Assembly: GCF_030063455.1 (NCBI RefSeq)
Contig: NZ_JASITB010000001.1
Span: forward strand, 620,001-684,000
DNA length: 64,000 nucleotides
DNA from: Cryobacterium sp. PH31-O1
GTDB taxonomy: Bacteria; Actinomycetota; Actinomycetes; Actinomycetales; Microbacteriaceae
Reading direction: 5' to 3'
The notes under the pieces were generated by a model that was not told the DNA's origin, searched no databases, and saw nothing but the letters and a program-made list of their open reading frames with translations. Shown in pieces: positions 52,364 through 62,814 of the stretch; the first letter of the stretch is position 1; each line of letters opens with the position of its first letter. Made by a program: the position numbers and the translations under genes.

Positions 52364-53221
52364 ATGACAACCCAGAGTTCCCGTATGGCTGGGTCAGTCA
52401 GCGGCCCGTTGGTCAGTACCGGGTCAGTCAGCGGCCCGTTGGCCAGTACCGGGTCAGTCACCCTAATCGGTGGCGGCCCCGGCGCCGTCGAACTGCTCAC
52501 CGTCGCCGCCGTCACCGCGTTGCAACAAGCGGATGTCGTGCTGTTCGACCGTCTCGCGCCCAACGACGATCTCACCTCCCTCGCCCCCAGGGCCACCCTG
52601 ATCGACGTCGGCAAACGCGCCGGCAGCCACCCGGTCTCGCAGATCGAAATTGAAGACCTCCTGGTCGAGCATGCCCTCGCCGGCCAGCGCGTGGTTCGGC
52701 TGAAGGGCGGCGACCCTTACGTGTTTGGCCGCGGCAGCGAAGAAGTGCTCGCCTGCCACCGCAACGGCATTGCGGTCACCGTCGTGTCGGGCGTCACGAG
52801 TGCGATCGCGGTGCCGGCGGCGGCCGGGATTCCGCTGACCCACCGCGGCATCAGCCACGCCTTCACCGTGATCAGCGGGCACGCGCCGCTCACCGACAAC
52901 GAACTCGAGGGTCTCGCCCTGCTCGGGAGCACCATCGTCGTCTTGATGGGTGTCGGCACCCTGCCGACCTTCAGCCAGGGTCTGCTGCGCCACGGCATGC
53001 CCGCCGACATGCCGGTGGCCATCATCGAGCGTGGGTTCAGCGCCACTCAGCGCACCACCGTGAGCACCCTGTCGACGGTTCTGGCGGATGCCGCGGCGGC
53101 CGGCGTGCGCAGCCCAGCCGTTCTGGTCGTCGGCGAAGTCGTACGCCTCGCTTTCAGCGGCGACACTTCCGCCGAAGAGCTGGTGGCCAGAGCGGCCGAG
53201 TTCGCGGTGACCGACCGATGA
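52364..53221 (+). CDS. cobA: Uroporphyrinogen-III C-methyltransferase
   Basis: This enzyme makes precorrin-2 from uroporphyrinogen III using SAM. VTLIGGGPGAVELLTVAA binds SAM; QADVVLFDRLAP, VVRLKGGDPYVFGRGSEE and VPAAAGIPLTHRG follow in family order. I take ATG 52364 (MTTQSS, with AAAGAG upstream); an ATG at 52328 has no RBS. Residues 9-32 hold a ten-residue duplication GSVSGPL(V/A)ST encoded by a 30-bp repeat. The stop overlaps hemD by 4 bp. Together with the chelatase it gives siroheme. Confidence 0.94.
   Translation: MTTQSSRMAGSVSGPLVSTGSVSGPLASTGSVTLIGGGPGAVELLTVAAVTALQQADVVLFDRLAPNDDLTSLAPRATLIDVGKRAGSHPVSQIEIEDLLVEHALAGQRVVRLKGGDPYVFGRGSEEVLACHRNGIAVTVVSGVTSAIAVPAAAGIPLTHRGISHAFTVISGHAPLTDNELEGLALLGSTIVVLMGVGTLPTFSQGLLRHGMPADMPVAIIERGFSATQRTTVSTLSTVLADAAAAGVRSPAVLVVGEVVRLAFSGDTSAEELVARAAEFAVTDR
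52391..52460 (+). repeat. 30-bp tandem repeat near the 5' end of cobA
   Basis: Two 30-bp units (52391-52420, 52421-52450) and a 10-bp partial third unit encode GSVSGPLVST, GSVSGPLAST and GSV. They lie before the SAM-binding fold begins. Confidence 0.93.
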
Positions 53222-56053: not shown

Positions 56054-57190
56054 GTGTCACTGGAATTCGCCCGATCCGCCCGCTCGACCGTGGGCATCGA
56101 GTGGGAGGTCGCTCTCGTCGACCGCGCAACCGGGGACCTGGTCAATATCGCTGACGAAGTGCTCGACGCGCTGCGCGGTCCCGACGGCTCCCCGCACTCC
56201 ACCATCACCGGCGAGCTGCTGCTCAATACCGTCGAGCTGGTCTCCGGCGTGCACGACACCGTCGGCCACGCCGTAGCGGATGTCGCCGGCCAGCTCGGCG
56301 AGGTACGGCACGCCCTTGCGGAACGCGAGGTTGACGTGATCTGTAGCGGGTCGCATCCGTTTGCGCAGTGGTTCGACCAGACCATCACCGACAAGGCCCG
56401 CTACCACAAGCTCATCGACCGCACCCAGTGGTGGGGGCGCAACATGATGATCTGGGGAATCCACGTGCACGTCGGCATCGAGGACAAGGCCAAGGTGATT
56501 CCGATCATGAACGGCTTGCTCACCTACGTGCCGCACCTGCAGGCCCTGAGCGCGTCGAGTCCGTTCTGGGCCGGCGTCGACACCGGGTATGCCAGCAACC
56601 GCTCGCTCATGTTCCAGCAACTGCCGACCGCCGGCCTGCCCTGGGACCTGCCCGACTGGGAGGCGTGGGAGCGCTACGTCGACGACATGGCGGTGACCGG
56701 CATTATCGAGGACGTCACCGAGGTTCGCTGGGACATTCGCCCGTCACCGCGCTGGGGCACGATCGAGATTCGGGTCTGCGACGGGGTCTCGACCACCGTT
56801 GAGCTTGGCGCGATCGCCGCGTTCATCCAGTGCCTGGTCGAGTGGATGTCCACCCGCCTAGACGCGGGCGAGGACGTACCGTGCATGCAGCCGTGGTTCG
56901 TGCGAGAGAACAAGTGGCGGGCAGCCCGCTACGGGCTCGACGCCGAGATCATCCTCGATGCCTTAGGCGCCGAATGCCTGGTGACGGATGACGTGCGGCG
57001 CCTCATCGAGACGCTCTCCCCCGTTGCCGTTCGGCTCGGCTGCCTGCCGGAGCTGCTCGGCCTGCACCGCATCATCGACGACGGCGGCAGCTACCAGCGG
57101 CAGCTGGCCGTCGCCGCTGCCTCGGACGGCAGCCTGCCGGCAGTCGTCGCGGCGCTCAGTCACGAGTTGGCGCAGGGGCTCGGGCGCTAA
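56054..57190 (+). CDS. Carboxylate-amine ligase, YbdK/GCS2 type
   Basis: The 378-residue enzyme belongs to the GCS2 family (glutamate-cysteine ligase-like). GIEWEVALVDRATGDLVNIA opens it, and GIHVHVGIEDKAKVIPIMNG, TEVRWDIRPSPRWGTIEIRV and VDDMAVTGIIEDV follow. Start is GTG 56054 with AAGGAG. Members have weak or varied ligase activity; actinobacteria of this group generally make mycothiol, so the substrate is unclear. It is divergent from rpsP and convergent with the LLM gene, with repeat element copy A between. Confidence 0.9.
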   Translation: MSLEFARSARSTVGIEWEVALVDRATGDLVNIADEVLDALRGPDGSPHSTITGELLLNTVELVSGVHDTVGHAVADVAGQLGEVRHALAEREVDVICSGSHPFAQWFDQTITDKARYHKLIDRTQWWGRNMMIWGIHVHVGIEDKAKVIPIMNGLLTYVPHLQALSASSPFWAGVDTGYASNRSLMFQQLPTAGLPWDLPDWEAWERYVDDMAVTGIIEDVTEVRWDIRPSPRWGTIEIRVCDGVSTTVELGAIAAFIQCLVEWMSTRLDAGEDVPCMQPWFVRENKWRAARYGLDAEIILDALGAECLVTDDVRRLIETLSPVAVRLGCLPELLGLHRIIDDGGSYQRQLAVAAASDGSLPAVVAALSHELAQGLGR

Positions 57191-57264: not shown

Positions 57265-57331
57265 GGACGGGGCCCGGGCCCCGTCCCCGGGCCCAGTCTA
57301 TAAACTGGGCCTGTGGTCACAACGTGGGCCC
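57265..57331 (-). repeat. 67-bp structured repeat element, copy A
   Basis: Copy A of the 67-bp family lies on the minus strand. It reads GGGCCCAC, then a hairpin with arms GGCCCAGT and ACTGGGCC around TTATAG, then a perfect 22-bp palindrome with half GGACGGGGCCC (57265-57286 on the plus strand). It lies between the convergent YbdK-like and LLM genes. Confidence 0.93.
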
Positions 57332-57436
57332 GCAAGAGTTCCAGCTGCGGACCGGGCACTGGCGTCTTTACCCAAGCGCCCGGTCGTAAGCGCACCAGCA
57401 GTATCCGCTGCGGCATGGGCATCCGTTTGAGGCGGA

Positions 57437-58240
57437 TTAGGCGTTCTTGCTGTCGCGCCAGGCCAGCCAGTCGATGGCTTGGCCCAGATCGTAGTCGGGG
57501 CCGGAGATGCCAACGGTGAACAGACGGGTGCCGAGGTCGTAGAGCGCGTCGGCGTCGTGCACCGTGCGACCGCGTAGTTCGGTGGAGATCTCGATCTCGC
57601 CCCTGGAGCGGCCGACCTCGTCGCACCAGGCTTCGAGCACTCCGAGTTTGTGCTCGAGCACCTCGGGGTTGGAGAACGAGTGCCAAATATCGGCGTGCTG
57701 GGCGACGATGCGCAGGGTCTTCTTCTCGCCGCCGCCGCCGATGAGCACGGGGATGTCACGGGTGGGTGGCGGGTTGATCTTCGCCCAGCGTGCTTCGATG
57801 CGGTTCAGGCTGTCGTCGAGGGCGTTCAGCCGGGTGCCGGGAGTGCCGAATTCGTAGCCGTATTCCTGGTAGTCGCGTTCGAACCAGCCGGCACCGGTAC
57901 CGAAGATGAAGCGCCCGCCGCTGATGTGGTCGATCGTGCGGGCCATGTCGGCCTGAAGGTCGGCGTTTCGGTAGCTGTTGCAATTCACGAGGGCGCCGAA
58001 TTCGATCGTCGTGGTCTGCTCGGCCCAGGCGGCGAGGATGGTCCACGATTCGAAGTGCAGGCCGTCGGGCTCACCGCTGAGCGGAAAGAAGTGGTCCCAG
58101 TTGAAGGCGATGTCGAAGCCGCGCGACTCGACCTCGGTGAGAGTGTCGCGAATCTTCGTGTATTCGGCGTGCTGCGGCGCGATCTGCACGCCGATGCGCA
58201 CGTTCTGATTCGTCGGGTTCGTCTGATTCGTCGGGGTCAT
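57437..58240 (-). CDS. LLM-class F420-dependent oxidoreductase
   Basis: This luciferase-like TIM-barrel protein (267 residues from ATG 58240) shows RIGVQIAPQHAEYTKIRDT, DIAFNWDHFFPLSGEPDG, TTIEFGALVNCNSYRNADL, GRFIFGTGAGWFERDYQEYG and PVLIGGGGEKKTLRIVAQHA, the pattern of the F420-binding subgroup. Function is a two-electron reduction or oxidation of an unknown substrate. A TNQTNPTNQN start comes from an 18-bp tandem repeat. The start at 58240 excludes repeat copy B. Confidence 0.9.
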   Translation of the reverse strand: MTPTNQTNPTNQNVRIGVQIAPQHAEYTKIRDTLTEVESRGFDIAFNWDHFFPLSGEPDGLHFESWTILAAWAEQTTTIEFGALVNCNSYRNADLQADMARTIDHISGGRFIFGTGAGWFERDYQEYGYEFGTPGTRLNALDDSLNRIEARWAKINPPPTRDIPVLIGGGGEKKTLRIVAQHADIWHSFSNPEVLEHKLGVLEAWCDEVGRSRGEIEISTELRGRTVHDADALYDLGTRLFTVGISGPDYDLGQAIDWLAWRDSKNA

Positions 58241-58241
58241 G
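58206..58241 (-). repeat. 18-bp tandem repeat at the 5' end of the LLM gene
   Basis: Two 18-bp units (58206-58223 and 58224-58241, a few mismatches) encode the TNQ-type repeats at the N-terminus, next to the start codon. Confidence 0.75.
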
Positions 58242-58319
58242 GCATTCAGCCTAGGACCACACCCCGGCCGCGTCGCCACCCCCGGCAACGATTCAACGCT
58301 GGCTCCCAGCAGTCGCGCC

Positions 58320-58386
58320 GGGCCCACCCTATGTCCACGGGCCCAGTTTATAGACTGGGCCCGTGGACGGGGCCCGGGCCCCGTCC
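58320..58386 (+). repeat. 67-bp structured repeat element, copy B
   Basis: Copy B has a perfect 14-bp inverted repeat (58334-58347 and 58354-58367) around TTATAG, then a perfect 22-bp palindrome (58365-58386). GGGCCCAC (58320-58327) leads it. It lies between the ffh 3' end (12 bp away) and the LLM start. Confidence 0.95.
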
Positions 58387-58398
58387 AGAAGAGGCGGT

Positions 58399-59988
58399 CT
58401 ACCGGCCGAGCATTTTCTGCAGCGCGGCCATTTCTTCCTCGGTGGGACCGCCGGGCTTGCCCTTGCCTGGCTGGGCGCCGGAGCCGAGGCCGAAACCGGA
58501 GCCTGCGGCATCCGTTGCGGCAGTCTCACTCAAAGGCTTGACACCCGAGGCGATCGCGGCGTTCTCGGCGGCCCGCTTGGCCGGGTTGCCCGACTTGGAG
58601 CCCTTCTTTTTGGCGACCTGCTTGGGCTTGCCGCCGTAGCCGGCACCGGGGATCGGGCCCATGCCGGGAATGTTTGGCATGCCGCCCTTGGCAACGGTTT
58701 TCATCATCTTGGCGGCCTGCTCGAAGCGCTGCACGAGCGCATTGACCTCGGTGACGGTCGATCCGGAACCGCGAGCGATGCGCAGACGGCGGGAACCGTT
58801 CAGCAACTTCGGGGTGGTGCGTTCGAGCTTGGTCATCGACTGAATGATGGCCTCGGTACGCACGATCTCGCGCTCGTCGAAGTTCTCGAGCTGCTGCTTC
58901 ATAGCGCCGGCGCCGGGCAGCATGCTCATCATCTTCTTGATCGAGCCCATGTTGCGCAGCTGCTGCATCTGGCCGAGAAAGTCGTCGAGAGTGAAGGTGT
59001 CGGTCGCAAACTTTTCGGCGACCTTACGGGCTTCGTCCTCGTCAAAAGCCCCCTGCGCCTGCTCGATCAGGGTGAGGATGTCACCGAGGTCGAGGATGCG
59101 CCCGGCCATGCGGTCGGGGTGGAACGGCTCGAAGTCGTCGAGTCCTTCACCGGTGGAGGCGAACATAATCGGGCGGCCGGTGAGCGATGCCACCGAGAGC
59201 GCCGCGCCACCGCGGGCGTCGCCGTCCAGCTTGGTAAGCACGACGCCGGTGAAGTCGACGCCGTCTTGGAAAGCCTTCGCCGTAGCGACGGCGTCCTGGC
59301 CGATCATGGCGTCGATGACGAAGAGCACCTCGTCGGGGTTGATCGCCTTGCGAATGTTCGCGGCCTGCTTCATCAGTTCCGCGTCAACGCCGAGACGACC
59401 GGCGGTGTCAACGATGACCACGTCGTGCACCTTCTGCAGGGCATATTTCACGCCGTCGCGGGCCACCTTGACCGGGTCGCCGACGCCGTTGCCCGGCTCG
59501 GGCGCATAAACGGCGACGCCGGCCTGCTTGGCGACGACCTCAAGCTGGGTGACCGCGTTCGGGCGCTGCAGGTCGGCCGCGACGAGCAGCGGTGTGTGGC
59601 CATCCTTGGCCAGCCACTTGGCGAGCTTGCCGGCGAGGGTAGTCTTGCCGGCACCCTGCAGGCCCGCGAGCATAATAATGGTCGGCGGCTTCTTAGCGAA
59701 TTCCAGCCGGCGCTGCTGGCCACCGAGGATGGTGATGAGCTCGTCGTTGACGATCTGCACGACCTGCTGGGCCGGGTTCAAGGCCTTGCTGACCTCGTCG
59801 CCGAGGGCGCGCTCCCGCACCTTGCCAGTGAAGTCCTTGACGACCTCGAGGGCCACGTCGGCATCGAGCAGCGCGCGTCGAATCTCACGAACGGTGCCGT
59901 CGACATCGGCTGCGCTGAGCTTGCCCTTGGTACGGAGGTTTTTGAACGTCTCGGCAAGACGATCTGAGAGGTTTCCAAAAGTTGCCAT
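58399..59988 (-). CDS. ffh: Signal recognition particle protein Ffh
   Basis: Ffh targets ribosomes making membrane proteins to FtsY. The N-domain precedes the GTPase: LAGLQGAGKTTLAGKLAKW, DTAGRLGVDAELM, VLTKLDGDARGGAALSV. The M-domain (SIKKMMSMLPGAGAMKQQ) binds 4.5S RNA. At 529 residues it is full length, with a Gly/Lys-rich tail. It begins 7 bp after the TetR stop. Confidence 0.97.
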   Translation of the reverse strand: MATFGNLSDRLAETFKNLRTKGKLSAADVDGTVREIRRALLDADVALEVVKDFTGKVRERALGDEVSKALNPAQQVVQIVNDELITILGGQQRRLEFAKKPPTIIMLAGLQGAGKTTLAGKLAKWLAKDGHTPLLVAADLQRPNAVTQLEVVAKQAGVAVYAPEPGNGVGDPVKVARDGVKYALQKVHDVVIVDTAGRLGVDAELMKQAANIRKAINPDEVLFVIDAMIGQDAVATAKAFQDGVDFTGVVLTKLDGDARGGAALSVASLTGRPIMFASTGEGLDDFEPFHPDRMAGRILDLGDILTLIEQAQGAFDEDEARKVAEKFATDTFTLDDFLGQMQQLRNMGSIKKMMSMLPGAGAMKQQLENFDEREIVRTEAIIQSMTKLERTTPKLLNGSRRLRIARGSGSTVTEVNALVQRFEQAAKMMKTVAKGGMPNIPGMGPIPGAGYGGKPKQVAKKKGSKSGNPAKRAAENAAIASGVKPLSETAATDAAGSGFGLGSGAQPGKGKPGGPTEEEMAALQKMLGR

Positions 59989-59995
59989 GATTAGG

Positions 59996-60595
59996 TCAGT
60001 TTATCGGCCCAATGGGGCTCGGTGCGATCAGCCGCTCGACCGCGCCGATGACGCTGGCCCGGCGTGCCGCTACCGCTTCCGGGTCGGCCGGGGCGCCGCG
60101 CGGCGCCACGGCGCCGGGCTCGTGCATCCAGGCCGAGGCCACGCCGAAGATGAGGGTCATCAGGTGCACCGGGTCCCACGACGCGTCGACCCGTCCCAAC
60201 TGCTGCGCCAAGCGGATGCGCCGCACCTGTTCGTCGCGATAGCCCACCATGACTTCGAGGGCCGGCAGCCAGGTGCCGTCTGTTTCGAGCCGGGCCCAGT
60301 CGATCATGCGCAAGTGGTCACCGTGCAGCACCGCGTGATCGAACAGGGCTCCGGCGAAGGCGGGCACGTCATGGTCGGTGAGCACGGCGTCGCTCGCGAA
60401 CTCGCGCAGGTTCAATTCCAACACGTCGAGGAACAGCTGCTGCTTGTCCGAGTAATACGCGTACAGGCGTTCCTTGCTCGCTGCCGCGTTCTTCGCGATG
60501 CGGTCGATGCGTGCCCCGGCCAGTCCGTAGGCGGCGAATTCGGCGCGCGCCGCCTCGAGAATGCGGGTCTGGGGGTCTGCTCCGTCGCGTGCCAT
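59996..60595 (-). CDS. TetR-family transcriptional regulator
   Basis: The 199-residue repressor-type protein has an N-terminal helix-turn-helix (FAAYGLAGARIDRIAKNAAA, SKERLYAYYSDKQQLF) and a variable ligand domain. It is divergent from the MFS gene with a 16-bp palindrome between the two starts, so it most likely represses the transporter and itself. The ligand, perhaps an antimicrobial exported by the pump, is unknown. Confidence 0.9.
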   Translation of the reverse strand: MARDGADPQTRILEAARAEFAAYGLAGARIDRIAKNAAASKERLYAYYSDKQQLFLDVLELNLREFASDAVLTDHDVPAFAGALFDHAVLHGDHLRMIDWARLETDGTWLPALEVMVGYRDEQVRRIRLAQQLGRVDASWDPVHLMTLIFGVASAWMHEPGAVAPRGAPADPEAVAARRASVIGAVERLIAPSPIGPIN

Positions 60596-60624
60596 GTTTC
60601 GACTATAGCCAACAATTCATTCAA

Positions 60625-60640
60625 AACGAACTAGTTCGTT
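60625..60640. promoter_or_regulatory. Perfect 16-bp palindrome, probable TetR operator
   Basis: AACGAACTAGTTCGTT is a perfect 16-bp palindrome between the divergent tetR (start 60595) and MFS (start 60666) genes, 29 bp and 25 bp from them. The form and location fit a TetR dimer site. Confidence 0.75.
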
Positions 60641-60665
60641 CGGTTCGCACGATAGAGTTGCAGAC

Positions 60666-62225
60666 ATGTCGACTCCACCCCGCAGCACAGTTCCGCCCGA
60701 ATCCGAAACACCGAATACGCCCACGATTGAACCAAAGTCCGCGCCGCCCGCGCCCGCGGGAGCGGCATCCGCTTCACTGAAGCCGGGCGAGCCCAACCCG
60801 CGCCGCTGGTGGCTGCTCGCCATCGTCGCGCTCGCCCAGCTCACCGTCGTGCTCGACGGCACCATCGTGAACATCGCACTCCCCCAGGCGCAGGAAGCGC
60901 TCGGCATGAGCGACGGCGACCGCACCTGGGTGGTCACGCTCTACTCCCTCGTCTTCGGGGCGCTGCTGCTGCTCGGTGGGCGCATCGCTGATTTTTGGGG
61001 GCGTAAGCGCTCCTTCATTGTGGGCATGGCCGGGTTCGCCATCGCTTCCGCGCTCGGCGGAGCCGCCCAGAGCACCTGGGAGTTGCTCGCCGCCCGCGGA
61101 CTGCAGGGCCTGTTCGCCGCGCTGCTCGCGCCGGCGTCGCTCGCCCTGCTCACGGTGAACTTTCCCGGCGGCAAGGATCGCATCAAGGCCTTCGCCGTGT
61201 ATGGCGCGATCGCCGGCGGTGGAGCGGCGGTCGGCCTCATTCTCGGCGGGGTGCTCACCGAGTATGCGAGCTGGCGCTGGTGCCTCTACGTGAACGTGCC
61301 GATCGCGTTCATGGCGATTGCCGCCGCTATCCCAGTGATTCGGGAGAGCAAGGCGCACGGCAACACCCGGTACGACGTGCCGGGGGCTATTCTCGTGGCG
61401 CTCGGGCTGGGATCCCTGGTTTTCGGCTTCTCGCAGGCGGAGAATGGCTGGGACACCTGGCCTGTGCTCGTCTGCCTCCCGCTGGGACTGGTGCTGCTGG
61501 GACTGTTCGTGCTTGTGGAAAGCCGGTCGAATCATCCACTGCTGCCGTTGCGCATTATGGCGAACAAGGTGCGCGGCGGGGCTTTTCTCACCGCGCTGCT
61601 GTCGGGCGCAGCGCTGCTGGGTGGGCTGCTGTTTCTCACGCTGTACTTTCAGATTGTGCTGGGCTACACGCCCATTCAGTCCGGTCTGGCCTCACTGCCG
61701 ATGACGGTGACGATCATGATCGGTGCCGGCGTGCTGTCAAAGTTTCTGGCGCGTATCGGCGTGCGCATTCCGATGACGGTCGGACCGGTCGTCGGCGCGG
61801 CCGGGCTGCTCTGGATGACGCAGATCACGGTGGGCGGCAATTATGCGCTCGAGGTGTTGCCGGGGCTGATTCTGCTCGGCGCCGGCCTCGCAATGATCTT
61901 CGTGCCGCTGCAGAACGTGGCGCTGTCGGGGATCGCCGAGCATGACGCCGGTGCGGCGAGCGCGGCGGTGACGGCCATGCAGCAGATCGGCGGATCGCTG
62001 GGAGCGGCCCTGTTCACGGCGCTCTACACCGCTGCCGTGAGTGCGTACCTGGTCGGCACGGTGCCGTCGCAGGCAGCTGCGCTCGGTGCCCTCGTGAGCG
62101 GATACCAGTCCGCCTTCCTCTGGGCGGCTGTCATCATCTTCGCGGCGGCGCCAGTTTCGTTCTTTCTGGTGCGTCCGCGCAAGGAAGACCTGCTCGGCGC
62201 GGGGGCCGCGGTGCACCTCGGGTAA
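60666..62225 (+). CDS. MFS drug transporter, DHA2 (14-helix) type
   Basis: The 519-residue antiporter carries fourteen membrane helices. Motif A appears as FGALLLLGGRIADFWGRKRS, and VLDGTIVNIALPQAQEALG is the DHA2 helix-1 motif with the conserved Asp; a Ser/Pro-rich tail precedes helix 1. Proton-driven export of hydrophobic drugs is the family role. TetR and its palindrome lie upstream. Confidence 0.94.
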   Translation: MSTPPRSTVPPESETPNTPTIEPKSAPPAPAGAASASLKPGEPNPRRWWLLAIVALAQLTVVLDGTIVNIALPQAQEALGMSDGDRTWVVTLYSLVFGALLLLGGRIADFWGRKRSFIVGMAGFAIASALGGAAQSTWELLAARGLQGLFAALLAPASLALLTVNFPGGKDRIKAFAVYGAIAGGGAAVGLILGGVLTEYASWRWCLYVNVPIAFMAIAAAIPVIRESKAHGNTRYDVPGAILVALGLGSLVFGFSQAENGWDTWPVLVCLPLGLVLLGLFVLVESRSNHPLLPLRIMANKVRGGAFLTALLSGAALLGGLLFLTLYFQIVLGYTPIQSGLASLPMTVTIMIGAGVLSKFLARIGVRIPMTVGPVVGAAGLLWMTQITVGGNYALEVLPGLILLGAGLAMIFVPLQNVALSGIAEHDAGAASAAVTAMQQIGGSLGAALFTALYTAAVSAYLVGTVPSQAAALGALVSGYQSAFLWAAVIIFAAAPVSFFLVRPRKEDLLGAGAAVHLG

Positions 62226-62241
62226 CTGCGTGGGGGCTCCT

Positions 62242-62308
62242 GGGCCCACCTTGTGGCCGCGGGCCCAGCCTATAAGCTGGGCCCGCGGACGGGGCCTGGG
62301 CCCCGTCC
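62242..62308 (+). repeat. 67-bp structured repeat element, copy C
   Basis: Copy C has a 13-bp inverted repeat (62257-62269 and 62276-62288) around CTATAA and a nearly perfect 22-bp palindrome (62287-62308, centre changed). It lies between convergent MFS and DUF2004 stops. Several stem bases differ from copy B in pairs that keep base pairing. Confidence 0.94.
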
Positions 62309-62310
62309 GA

Positions 62311-62814
62311 TTAGCTGTCCAGGGCCACCTGCACGGTGTCGCCGTGCACGTCGATCGTCACGACCAGCAGGCCGTCGGTGTCGTCCGGGCTGATGGCATA
62401 TTCGAGTACCGCGAAGTGTGCCTCGCTGCCGTTGTGGTGCGGGTGAAAGCCGATGCGCTGCAGGCGCAGCGAGCGCAGAAAGTCGATCTGCTGGTCGCCG
62501 GAATCCCAGATGATGGCGTTTTCCACCGCCTCCTGATCCATCTCCTCGAGCTGCTCACTGATGTACTGGCTCGTCACCGAGACCTCGGCCGACAGGTCGG
62601 CCACGAGGGACTCCCGCACCTGGGAGTCGAGGTCCTCCATCGAACCGATCATGGCCGCGGCGATGTCGAGGGCTTCGGCGGTGACCGAATCTTCATCGGG
62701 CGAGCTGAGATCAATCTCGACGCTCTGGTCGCCAAGCTCGGCGGAATCCGACCAGTACACCTCGCCCTCGTCTTCGTCGCCGAGTATTCCGAAAAAATCG
62801 TGTTCGATGCTCAT
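62311..62814 (-). CDS. DUF2004 domain-containing protein
   Basis: The 167-residue acidic cytoplasmic protein contains SIEHDFFGILGDEDEGEVYW and DFLRSLRLQRIGFHPHHNG, typical of DUF2004. No catalytic motif is visible and the function is unknown. It sits 22 bp after ftsY on the same strand; the cotranscription is likely. Confidence 0.78.
   Translation of the reverse strand: MSIEHDFFGILGDEDEGEVYWSDSAELGDQSVEIDLSSPDEDSVTAEALDIAAAMIGSMEDLDSQVRESLVADLSAEVSVTSQYISEQLEEMDQEAVENAIIWDSGDQQIDFLRSLRLQRIGFHPHHNGSEAHFAVLEYAISPDDTDGLLVVTIDVHGDTVQVALDS

Follow-up and report, generated by a model that had tools for sequence, protein, structure and literature searches.

Repetitive extragenic palindromic (REP) elements with a GTAG or CGTC tag are described, in the portions of Di Nocera 2013 (PMC3733652) drawn on here, near the 3′ ends of convergent and tandem genes. 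The same portions state that CGTC REPs apparently lack a dedicated transposase and mention untagged REP-like families in other bacteria, Mycobacterium tuberculosis included, so that untagged families as such are not new. For 13 genomes, the part of PMC8355165 that we cite reports termination units made of hairpin clusters that no poly-U trail follows. Here we describe a 67-bp structured repeat of Cryobacterium sp. PH31-O1, three copies of which lie in a 64,000-nt stretch of its genome (assembly GCF_030063455.1, contig NZ_JASITB010000001.1, positions 620,001 to 684,000; hereafter the window, whose own numbering we use). Cryobacterium is a genus known for cold-living species. A preliminary description, made from the letters of the window alone, had presented the repeat as a member of no described family that could end transcription as a U-less terminator or be mobilised by a REP-associated tyrosine transposase (RAYT). 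Judging from comparisons of sequence, we hold with moderate confidence that the element represents a new REP-like family whose most likely role is that of a U-less hairpin terminator or a barrier at the 3′ end.

Results

A 67-bp element occurs at about 65 places in the PH31-O1 genome

As the preliminary description had it, the window contains three copies of exactly 67 bp that align without gaps (mean column identity 93%). These copies, and the parts of copy B, are as follows.

57265..57331, minus strand: copy A, between convergent GCS2/YbdK-like and luciferase-like monooxygenase (LLM) genes; no counterpart at this site in the relatives examined
58320..58386, plus strand: copy B, 12 nt past the ffh stop; the palindrome GGACGGGG leads when read from ffh
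62242..62308, plus strand: copy C, in the spacer between convergent major facilitator superfamily (MFS) and 167-aa protein genes, 16 and 2 nt from the stops
58320..58333, plus strand: head of copy B, conserved (element positions 1-14; most of the 39 copies aligned read GGGCCCACCYTRTG)
58339..58362: inverted repeat at the core of copy B, GGGCCCAGTTTATAGACTGGGCCC (element positions 20-43)
58365..58386: 22-bp palindrome of copy B, GGACGGGGCCCGGGCCCCGTCC (element positions 46-67)

The order of parts is the head, the core inverted repeat flanked by two variable pairs, and the 22-bp palindrome. In many copies the core is a perfect 24-bp palindrome, GGGCCCAGTTTATAAACTGGGCCC, and many stem columns are near-invariant in sequence. 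Positions 46-49 can pair either with 14-17, giving a longer core hairpin, or with 64-67, giving the palindrome hairpin. Base preferences extend beyond the 67 bp: among the 39 aligned copies the two upstream bases are C in 32 and 28, and position +3 is A in 29. (Note that the linear ends, GGGCCCACC and ..CCCCGTCC, showed no terminal inverted-repeat pair in the copy alignment.) The 22-bp palindrome had been ascribed to every copy in the window; in copy C it has one mismatch. When folded as RNA on the strand with GGGCCCAC first, copies B and C reached -54 kcal/mol (z -7.6) and -53.7 kcal/mol (z -5.1), respectively, and copy A, more weakly, -39.7 kcal/mol (z -2.9); folding as single-strand DNA was strong for copies B and C. 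A scan for intrinsic terminators with a T-tract marked none of the three window copies, so the term U-less fits them, and the canonical combination of GC hairpin and T-tract was not found at any of the three.

A search of the 3.64-Mb PH31-O1 genome by blastn with copy B (best 40 of 69 candidates scored), and then with a covariance model (R1, built from 37 PH31-O1 copies; best 150 of 2461 candidates), revealed a family far larger than three copies, with about 65 distinct places at E ≤ 1e-4 after merging of overlapping both-strand matches. Finding 65 distinct places at this threshold in 3.64 Mb rules out chance similarity. In 16 of the 65 copies a second palindrome stands in place of the head. 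No Rfam family reached its gathering score in the window, with five loci yielding sub-threshold microRNA models only, and a known RNA family was rejected on that basis. Moreover, the open-access literature that we searched on Cryobacterium and on such repeats held no description of the 67-bp element; both mentions of palindromic repeats in a paper on Cryobacterium genomes (PMC7381226) concern clustered regularly interspaced short palindromic repeats (CRISPR). Within these searches, the view that no described family has this sequence still stands.

Same-orientation pairs of elements about 100-160 bp apart recur across several genomes (G000:C11:333167/333314, 345127/345268, C10:503/644 and 243032/243135; also L210, L090, L070, L057 and L098, in our labels for genomes, contigs and loci). 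In some such pairs the two copies are nearly identical but the intervening DNA differs.

Most copies lie just past the 3′ ends of genes

Placement was read against gene calls from a codon-score caller, by which 91% of the window and 80% of a 224-kb control (which includes the window) is coding; the latter value indicates that some genes may be missed. All but one of the 65 PH31-O1 copies (64) are intergenic, and the remaining copy shares 48 nt with a called gene. Among the 61 copies with both neighbours called, 26 lie between convergent, 31 between tandem and 4 between divergent genes, as compared with 22.6%, 52.8% and 24.6%, respectively, of the intergenic bases of the control (p 0.0006 for the excess between convergent genes and p 0.0005 for the deficit between divergent genes). 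Furthermore, 44 of the 65 copies are within 40 nt of a 3′ end, versus 12.5% of random intergenic points. The 107 copies placed in other species comprise 53 convergent, 54 tandem and no divergent cases; 88 of them are within 40 nt of a 3′ end, and one extends more than 10 nt into a called gene.

Copies between tandem genes are also polar. In other species the palindrome end faces the preceding gene in 29 copies of clear orientation and the head does so in 9 (p 0.0017); in PH31-O1 the corresponding figures are 21 and 10 (p 0.07). (Note that copies in relatives share ancestry and are not independent events in these cross-species statistics.) The placement first proposed, that of a dispersed structured repeat at gene 3′ ends, is thus borne out in PH31-O1 and in other species. 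The narrower claim that every window copy touches a 3′ end holds for copies B and C, at the distances listed above, and fails for copy A, for which the two stops are 74 and 105 nt away.

The family is so far found in one lineage, with no RAYT match in 57 genus genomes

Within the genus, 21 of 57 genomes had a match. Seventeen of these carry from 12 to at least 88 matches (both strands counted, best ≤90 candidates per genome, so that the high counts are lower bounds), and four have a single weak match; we refer to the 17 as carriers and to genomes with at most one weak match in this search as non-carriers. In a search across the bacterial family (398 genomes of 85 genera; best 13 candidates per genome, with stricter filters than in the genus search), 4 genomes matched at E ≤ 1e-4, three of them Cryobacterium and one, weakly, of another genus, which is the single weak match in total from the 84 other sampled genera. 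(Two weak matches in another genus, in genome G236 with E 9e-5 and 2e-4, were not counted because their palindromes are partly different in sequence.) A search of named genomes with the core pattern gave at least 98 stretches, and all 80 matches listed were from Cryobacterium, among them C. flavum, C. luteum, C. aureum, C. suzukii and strains Y11, Y29, Y57, Y82 and PH31-L1. The 67-bp family is so far found only in Cryobacterium. On a tree of ffh (one gene, 41 of the 57 genomes, midpoint root), the 17 carriers fall within one supported group of 22, and the carrier label requires 3 changes versus 13.2 with shuffled labels. Collections of viral contigs, plasmids and phages held no element match (one of these searches used the exact core pattern), and a phage, plasmid or viral origin was accordingly rejected.

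The suggestion of mobilisation by a RAYT did not survive. The Y1_Tnp domain (PF01797) was found in none of the 57 genus genomes by a search that finds it in 5 of 14 control genomes, and a RAYT-mobilised REP was rejected for those 57. Nor did we find an unpaired GTAG or CGTC end tag on a hairpin of 20-40 bp: GTAG or CTAC lies within 8 nt of an end in only 4 of 65 copies, and CGTC is located inside the paired arm of the terminal palindrome. What was found, a large number of palindromic copies scattered over intergenic DNA and chiefly at 3′ ends, corresponds to the broad, untagged kind of REP-like or stem-loop repeat.

Elements recur at the same sites in relatives while flanks diverge

At many sites a member of the family stands at the same place in relatives while the flanking DNA diverges. 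An orthologous spacer was present among the fetched loci for 46 PH31-O1 copies, and it held an element in 121 PH31-O1-relative pairs (132 before repeats were removed), which involve 42 copies and 38 spacers; 113 of these pairs have the same orientation. Likewise, 74 of the 118 copies in other named loci are in spacers also occupied in PH31-O1. (Note that because most loci of relatives were fetched for holding the element or its exact core, occupancy in relatives is not an unbiased frequency; the ffh regions of 40 of the 56 other genomes were the sole loci fetched regardless of the element.) In same-orientation pairs the element is 87% identical while flank columns average 37% (range 20-50%), and 39 of 67 element columns reach an identity of at least 0.9, with 7 below 0.6; this element identity is raised by the condition set for ortholog pairs, which had to agree with one of two consensus sequences at 48 or more of the 67 positions. 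Values obtained before repeats were removed are similar. Orthologs are 86.1% identical, versus 82.1% for non-orthologous PH31-O1 copies, and in just 18 of the 121 pairs was no PH31-O1 copy closer than the ortholog. Taken together, the ortholog identity, the flank divergence and the shared spacers suggest that element position is largely inherited, that its sequence is kept far better than its flanks and that copies partly evolve together.

At site B (after ffh) a match was present in 12 of 16 other carriers and at site C in 13 of 16 (genome G034 was not covered at site C). Site C is occupied by subfamily 1 in, for example, G006, G053, G011, G020 and G038 and by subfamily 2 in, for example, G015, G048, G029, G019 and G050, and the subfamily does not follow the order of the tree, the sisters G011 and G015 carrying 1 and 2, respectively. 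Site A is occupied in PH31-O1 and had a model match in none of the 11 other carriers whose genes on both sides could be located (the nine spacers printed span 31-337 nt). For the idea that the repeat is mobile, site A therefore provides indirect support, against which stand the many other sites common to relatives. Two comparisons of occupied and empty sites by eye (site A and C10:244574) revealed no clean target-site duplication.

Several other Cryobacterium genomes have a different large palindrome, of the CGCGAACTGTGAG..CTCACGGTTCGCGG type, between the same convergent genes at site A (L117, L121, L125, L126 and L127, and in part L122).

Structure-keeping paired changes are strong across genomes

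Paired substitutions between copies B and C had been taken as the signature of selection on structure. Both are present (28-35, T-A to C-G; 18-45, A-T to G-C). Note that the second, said to lie next to GGGCCC, is actually two pairs outside it, and that pair 18-45 is kept in copies B and C but broken in copy A (A-G). Within PH31-O1 as a whole the claim was overstated. Paired cells amount to 93.0% versus 92.4% after shuffling, both sides change in 3 of 20 pairs while 12 of 20 never vary, the 16 double-change cells are matched in 12 of 500 shuffles, and the covariation score is reached by 36 of 500. The longer helix fares similarly (both sides changed in 3 of 15 pairs; score reached by 32 of 500 shuffles), and covariation for a third candidate structure was no better. 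With 3 of 20 pairs changed and the score reached in 36 of 500 shuffles, within-genome covariation was rejected as proof of structure.

Across genomes, in contrast, structural covariation is clear. In 34 sequences picked to span the subfamilies, 91.3% of cells were paired versus 79.0% when shuffled, double-change cells numbered 91 versus 48.1, and the covariation score was 0.301 versus 0.120 (reached by 0 of 500 shuffles; at most 0.069 when slid). The competing pairing, with 46-49 in the longer core hairpin, is equally supported (0.313 versus 0.129 shuffled; at most 0.101 when slid), and both alternative pairings of 46-49 are kept across species. Among 109 distinct sequences there are 12-32 double changes each at 16-47, 17-46, 18-45, 19-44, 28-35, 46-67, 47-66, 48-65 and 50-63; these counts are of sequences rather than events, and many reflect a subfamily switch, from AGTTT..AAACT with GGAC..GTCC to ATGAT..ATCAT with TTTC..GAAA.

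Other hairpins occupy some of these sites in non-carriers

None of the 24 non-carrier ffh regions held an element match. Eight non-carriers have the MFS gene beside the 167-aa gene, and in six of these site C holds a compact hairpin of the GCCCCCGG..CCGGGGGC type; the exceptions are G012, with a different long palindrome, and G014, with no evident hairpin. Because the T-tract scan that left the window copies unmarked also left unmarked the compact site-C hairpin of outgroup G036, we call these outgroup hairpins terminator-like on the basis of shape and place. Hairpins are abundant in the convergent spacers of these 24 regions (n=20, median z -3.86, p 0.0002), as compared with divergent (z -0.59, n=32) and tandem spacers (z -0.72, n=39); the spacers counted are for the most part the same ones in related genomes and so not independent.

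We also sought 14 convergent PH31-O1 sites in four non-carriers, for which 18 of 56 possible stretches were fetched, mostly ones with the two flanks near each other. Among the 10 stretches of G014, one held a degenerate core of subfamily 2 and another what looks like a remnant lacking the core, which suggests that G014 probably lost the family; a further one has a large unrelated hairpin (-74 kcal/mol), and two are short, weakly folded spacers (32-33 nt; -4 and -12). In G012 very long palindromes are present at three of five sites (-61, -104 and -139); of the other two, one folds modestly and one has a spacer of zero length. A perfect stem of 11-12 bp with GCGGATGCCCG is present at one site each in G036 and G001, and the second G036 stretch contains a 1364-nt gap.

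A further family of palindromes, some 62 bp long and with GGGCGCAG..CTGCGCCC as its arms, lies near gene ends (L268-L277), with exact cores in the non-carriers G012 (12), G030 (3) and G040 (1). It mostly has the loop TTCTA, shared with the element, and in 3 of the 4 G030/G040 copies the head, ACCCTGTG or near it, is also like that of the element; this family may be a distant relative of the 67-bp element. A motif, GCGGATGCC/GGCATCCGC, looks very frequent in the genus (an uncounted impression from the window and from relatives, for example L288 and L289) and sometimes forms perfect hairpins at gene ends.

Surroundings of the three copies in the window

The genes that flank the three copies are listed below.

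56054..57190, plus strand: GCS2 family (glutamate-cysteine ligase family 2, YbdK-like) gene, from Pfam
57437..58240, minus strand: LLM gene, from gene call and Pfam
58399..59988, minus strand: ffh (SRP54) gene, from Pfam
60666..62225, plus strand: MFS transporter gene, from Pfam
62311..62814, minus strand: gene for a 167-aa protein, first labelled DUF2004

Pfam supports the names given earlier to GCS2 (which fits YbdK-like), LLM, SRP54/ffh and MFS; the protein labelled DUF2004 had no Pfam match at E ≤ 1e-5. Elsewhere in the window, a 30-bp unit, GGGTCAGTCAGCGGCCCGTTGGTCAGTACC, is directly duplicated with one difference at 52391-52450, and a 111-nt convergent spacer holds about four tandem repeats of GCACCGGGCTTAGCAG and folds well beyond shuffles (z -4.1).

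Discussion

We infer termination by the element from its placement, polarity and structure and from the outgroup hairpins at site C, all of which fit a 3′-end hairpin that would stop RNA polymerase or protect the transcript end. Such termination would work in a single direction after tandem genes and in both directions between convergent ones. A transcript from the usual preceding gene would contain the hairpin GGACGGGGCCCGGGCCCCGTCC, then the core hairpin GGGCCCAGTTTATAAACTGGGCCC and then a tail of the CATAAGGTGGGCCC type. Because the strand 46-49 is shared and can pair either way, the first hairpin made could be complete whichever way polymerase arrives.

Several observations weigh against this reading. 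The T-tract scan marked no window copy, and 4 of the 61 PH31-O1 copies are, as called, between divergent genes. The short, weakly folded convergent spacers of G014 and its lack of an evident site-C hairpin indicate that a strong hairpin is not indispensable; moreover, in the control regions of PH31-O1 itself, convergent spacers that lack the element show only a mild excess of hairpins (median z -0.95, n=14, p 0.02). Across genomes the number of pairs with double changes is 8, versus 8.1 in shuffles; hairpin-templated repair could pair changes without selection, and kinship of sequences can beat shuffles without any structure. The near-invariant GGGCCC arms, head and loop go beyond the needs of a terminator, which suggests that the copies have a sequence-specific partner or share a recent origin. 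Finally, REP elements, which are discussed also as selfish DNA, are placed likewise in the portions of PMC3733652 cited here.

A doubtful but serious alternative is that the element is a selfish or neutral REP-like repeat, that is, non-autonomous mobile DNA without host function, moved by some other enzyme, that survives mainly where it is least harmful, just after genes. Its copy number (about 65 places), its restriction to one lineage, the same-orientation pairs about 100-160 bp apart in several genomes, the occupation of site A in PH31-O1 only among the relatives examined and a placement resembling that of REPs (in the cited portions of PMC3733652) are what such a repeat would show. It accounts less well for relatives that hold elements in 38 PH31-O1 element spacers despite scrambled flanks, or for the 74 of 118 copies in other named loci whose spacers are occupied in PH31-O1, and its case is further weakened by the lack of a RAYT match in all 57 genus genomes, of any match in the phage, plasmid and viral collections, and, for the two cases examined, of any clean example of an empty site or a duplicated target.

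We regard it as unlikely that the element works as a DNA-level site, with its palindromes bound by a protein (gyrase, a nucleoid protein or a dedicated factor) or extruded as cruciforms that absorb supercoils between convergent genes. Binding and supercoil absorption between convergent genes have been proposed as a role of bacterial interspersed mosaic elements (BIMEs). Near-perfect GC-rich palindromes with many near-invariant stem columns, enrichment at convergent junctions and the strength with which copies B and C fold as single-strand DNA agree with such a site, but the 29:9 polarity of tandem copies relative to the upstream gene and the closeness of the element to stops, rather than spacer-wide placement, point to transcription, and the arms change in concert between subfamilies. 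Slightly less probable still is a 3′ untranslated region (UTR) stabiliser, whose hairpins would block 3′ exonucleases and set mRNA half-life while Rho or other downstream signals terminate. Two hairpins without a U-tract, mostly within 40 nt past a stop, would suit that role; alone, however, it leaves unexplained both the enrichment between convergent genes and the terminator-like outgroup hairpins at site C.

As a more speculative extension of the terminator reading, which we put forward as improbable though worth stating, the copies might be exchangeable terminator cassettes. The 3′-end hairpin of Cryobacterium would then be fixed in place and not in sequence: each lineage would amplify its own family and overwrite the hairpin in place at dozens of gene ends by inter-site copying (gene conversion, or templating by a reverse transcript or single-stranded DNA), possibly with a lineage-specific factor that recognises the GGGCCC arms, loop and head. 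If the terminator reading itself is right, a Cryobacterium clade marks numerous gene ends with a single hairpin cassette, amplified and tuned to the species, without the transposase known to be tied to such repeats, and would provide dozens of natural, near-identical test sites for U-less termination in GC-rich bacteria. It would also offer a comparative system (one site, two subfamilies, other hairpins in outgroups) for the spread and usefulness of RAYT-less palindromic repeats.

Comparison with known systems

As with the REPs and untagged stem-loop repeats treated in the cited portions of PMC3733652 and of Cozzuto 2008 (PMC2267715), the copies are dispersed intergenic palindromes, mainly between convergent or tandem genes, and pairs of copies are common; a further likeness is that, in two species covered there, most REPs at convergent sites lie no further than 20 bp from either 3′ end. 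Unlike REPs as characterised in those portions (20-40 bp), the element is 67 bp long and combines two hairpins with a conserved head, and it is without an unpaired GTAG or CGTC tag and without a RAYT match in the 57 genus genomes. It resembles the hairpin-cluster intrinsic terminators of PMC8355165, as far as the cited part describes them, in that hairpins lie just past stops, are often clustered and do not need poly-U. Ordinary terminators differ from it in that near-identical 67-bp copies are here common to dozens of unrelated genes. DNA uptake sequence (DUS) oligonucleotides measure 10-12 bp. Like DUS terminators (Kingsford 2007, as cited in the part of PMC2267715 used here), the element is a dispersed sequence that forms hairpins of a terminator kind; unlike them, it is a 67-bp composite unit, and nothing found points to uptake. 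Miniature inverted-repeat transposable elements (MITEs) are likewise small, non-coding and dispersed, whereas the aligned copies of the element showed no pair of terminal inverted repeats, and two sites inspected by eye showed no target duplication. On the strength of these sequence comparisons, the element probably constitutes a new family within the broad class of REP-like repeats, unusual for the turnover of its sequence in place.

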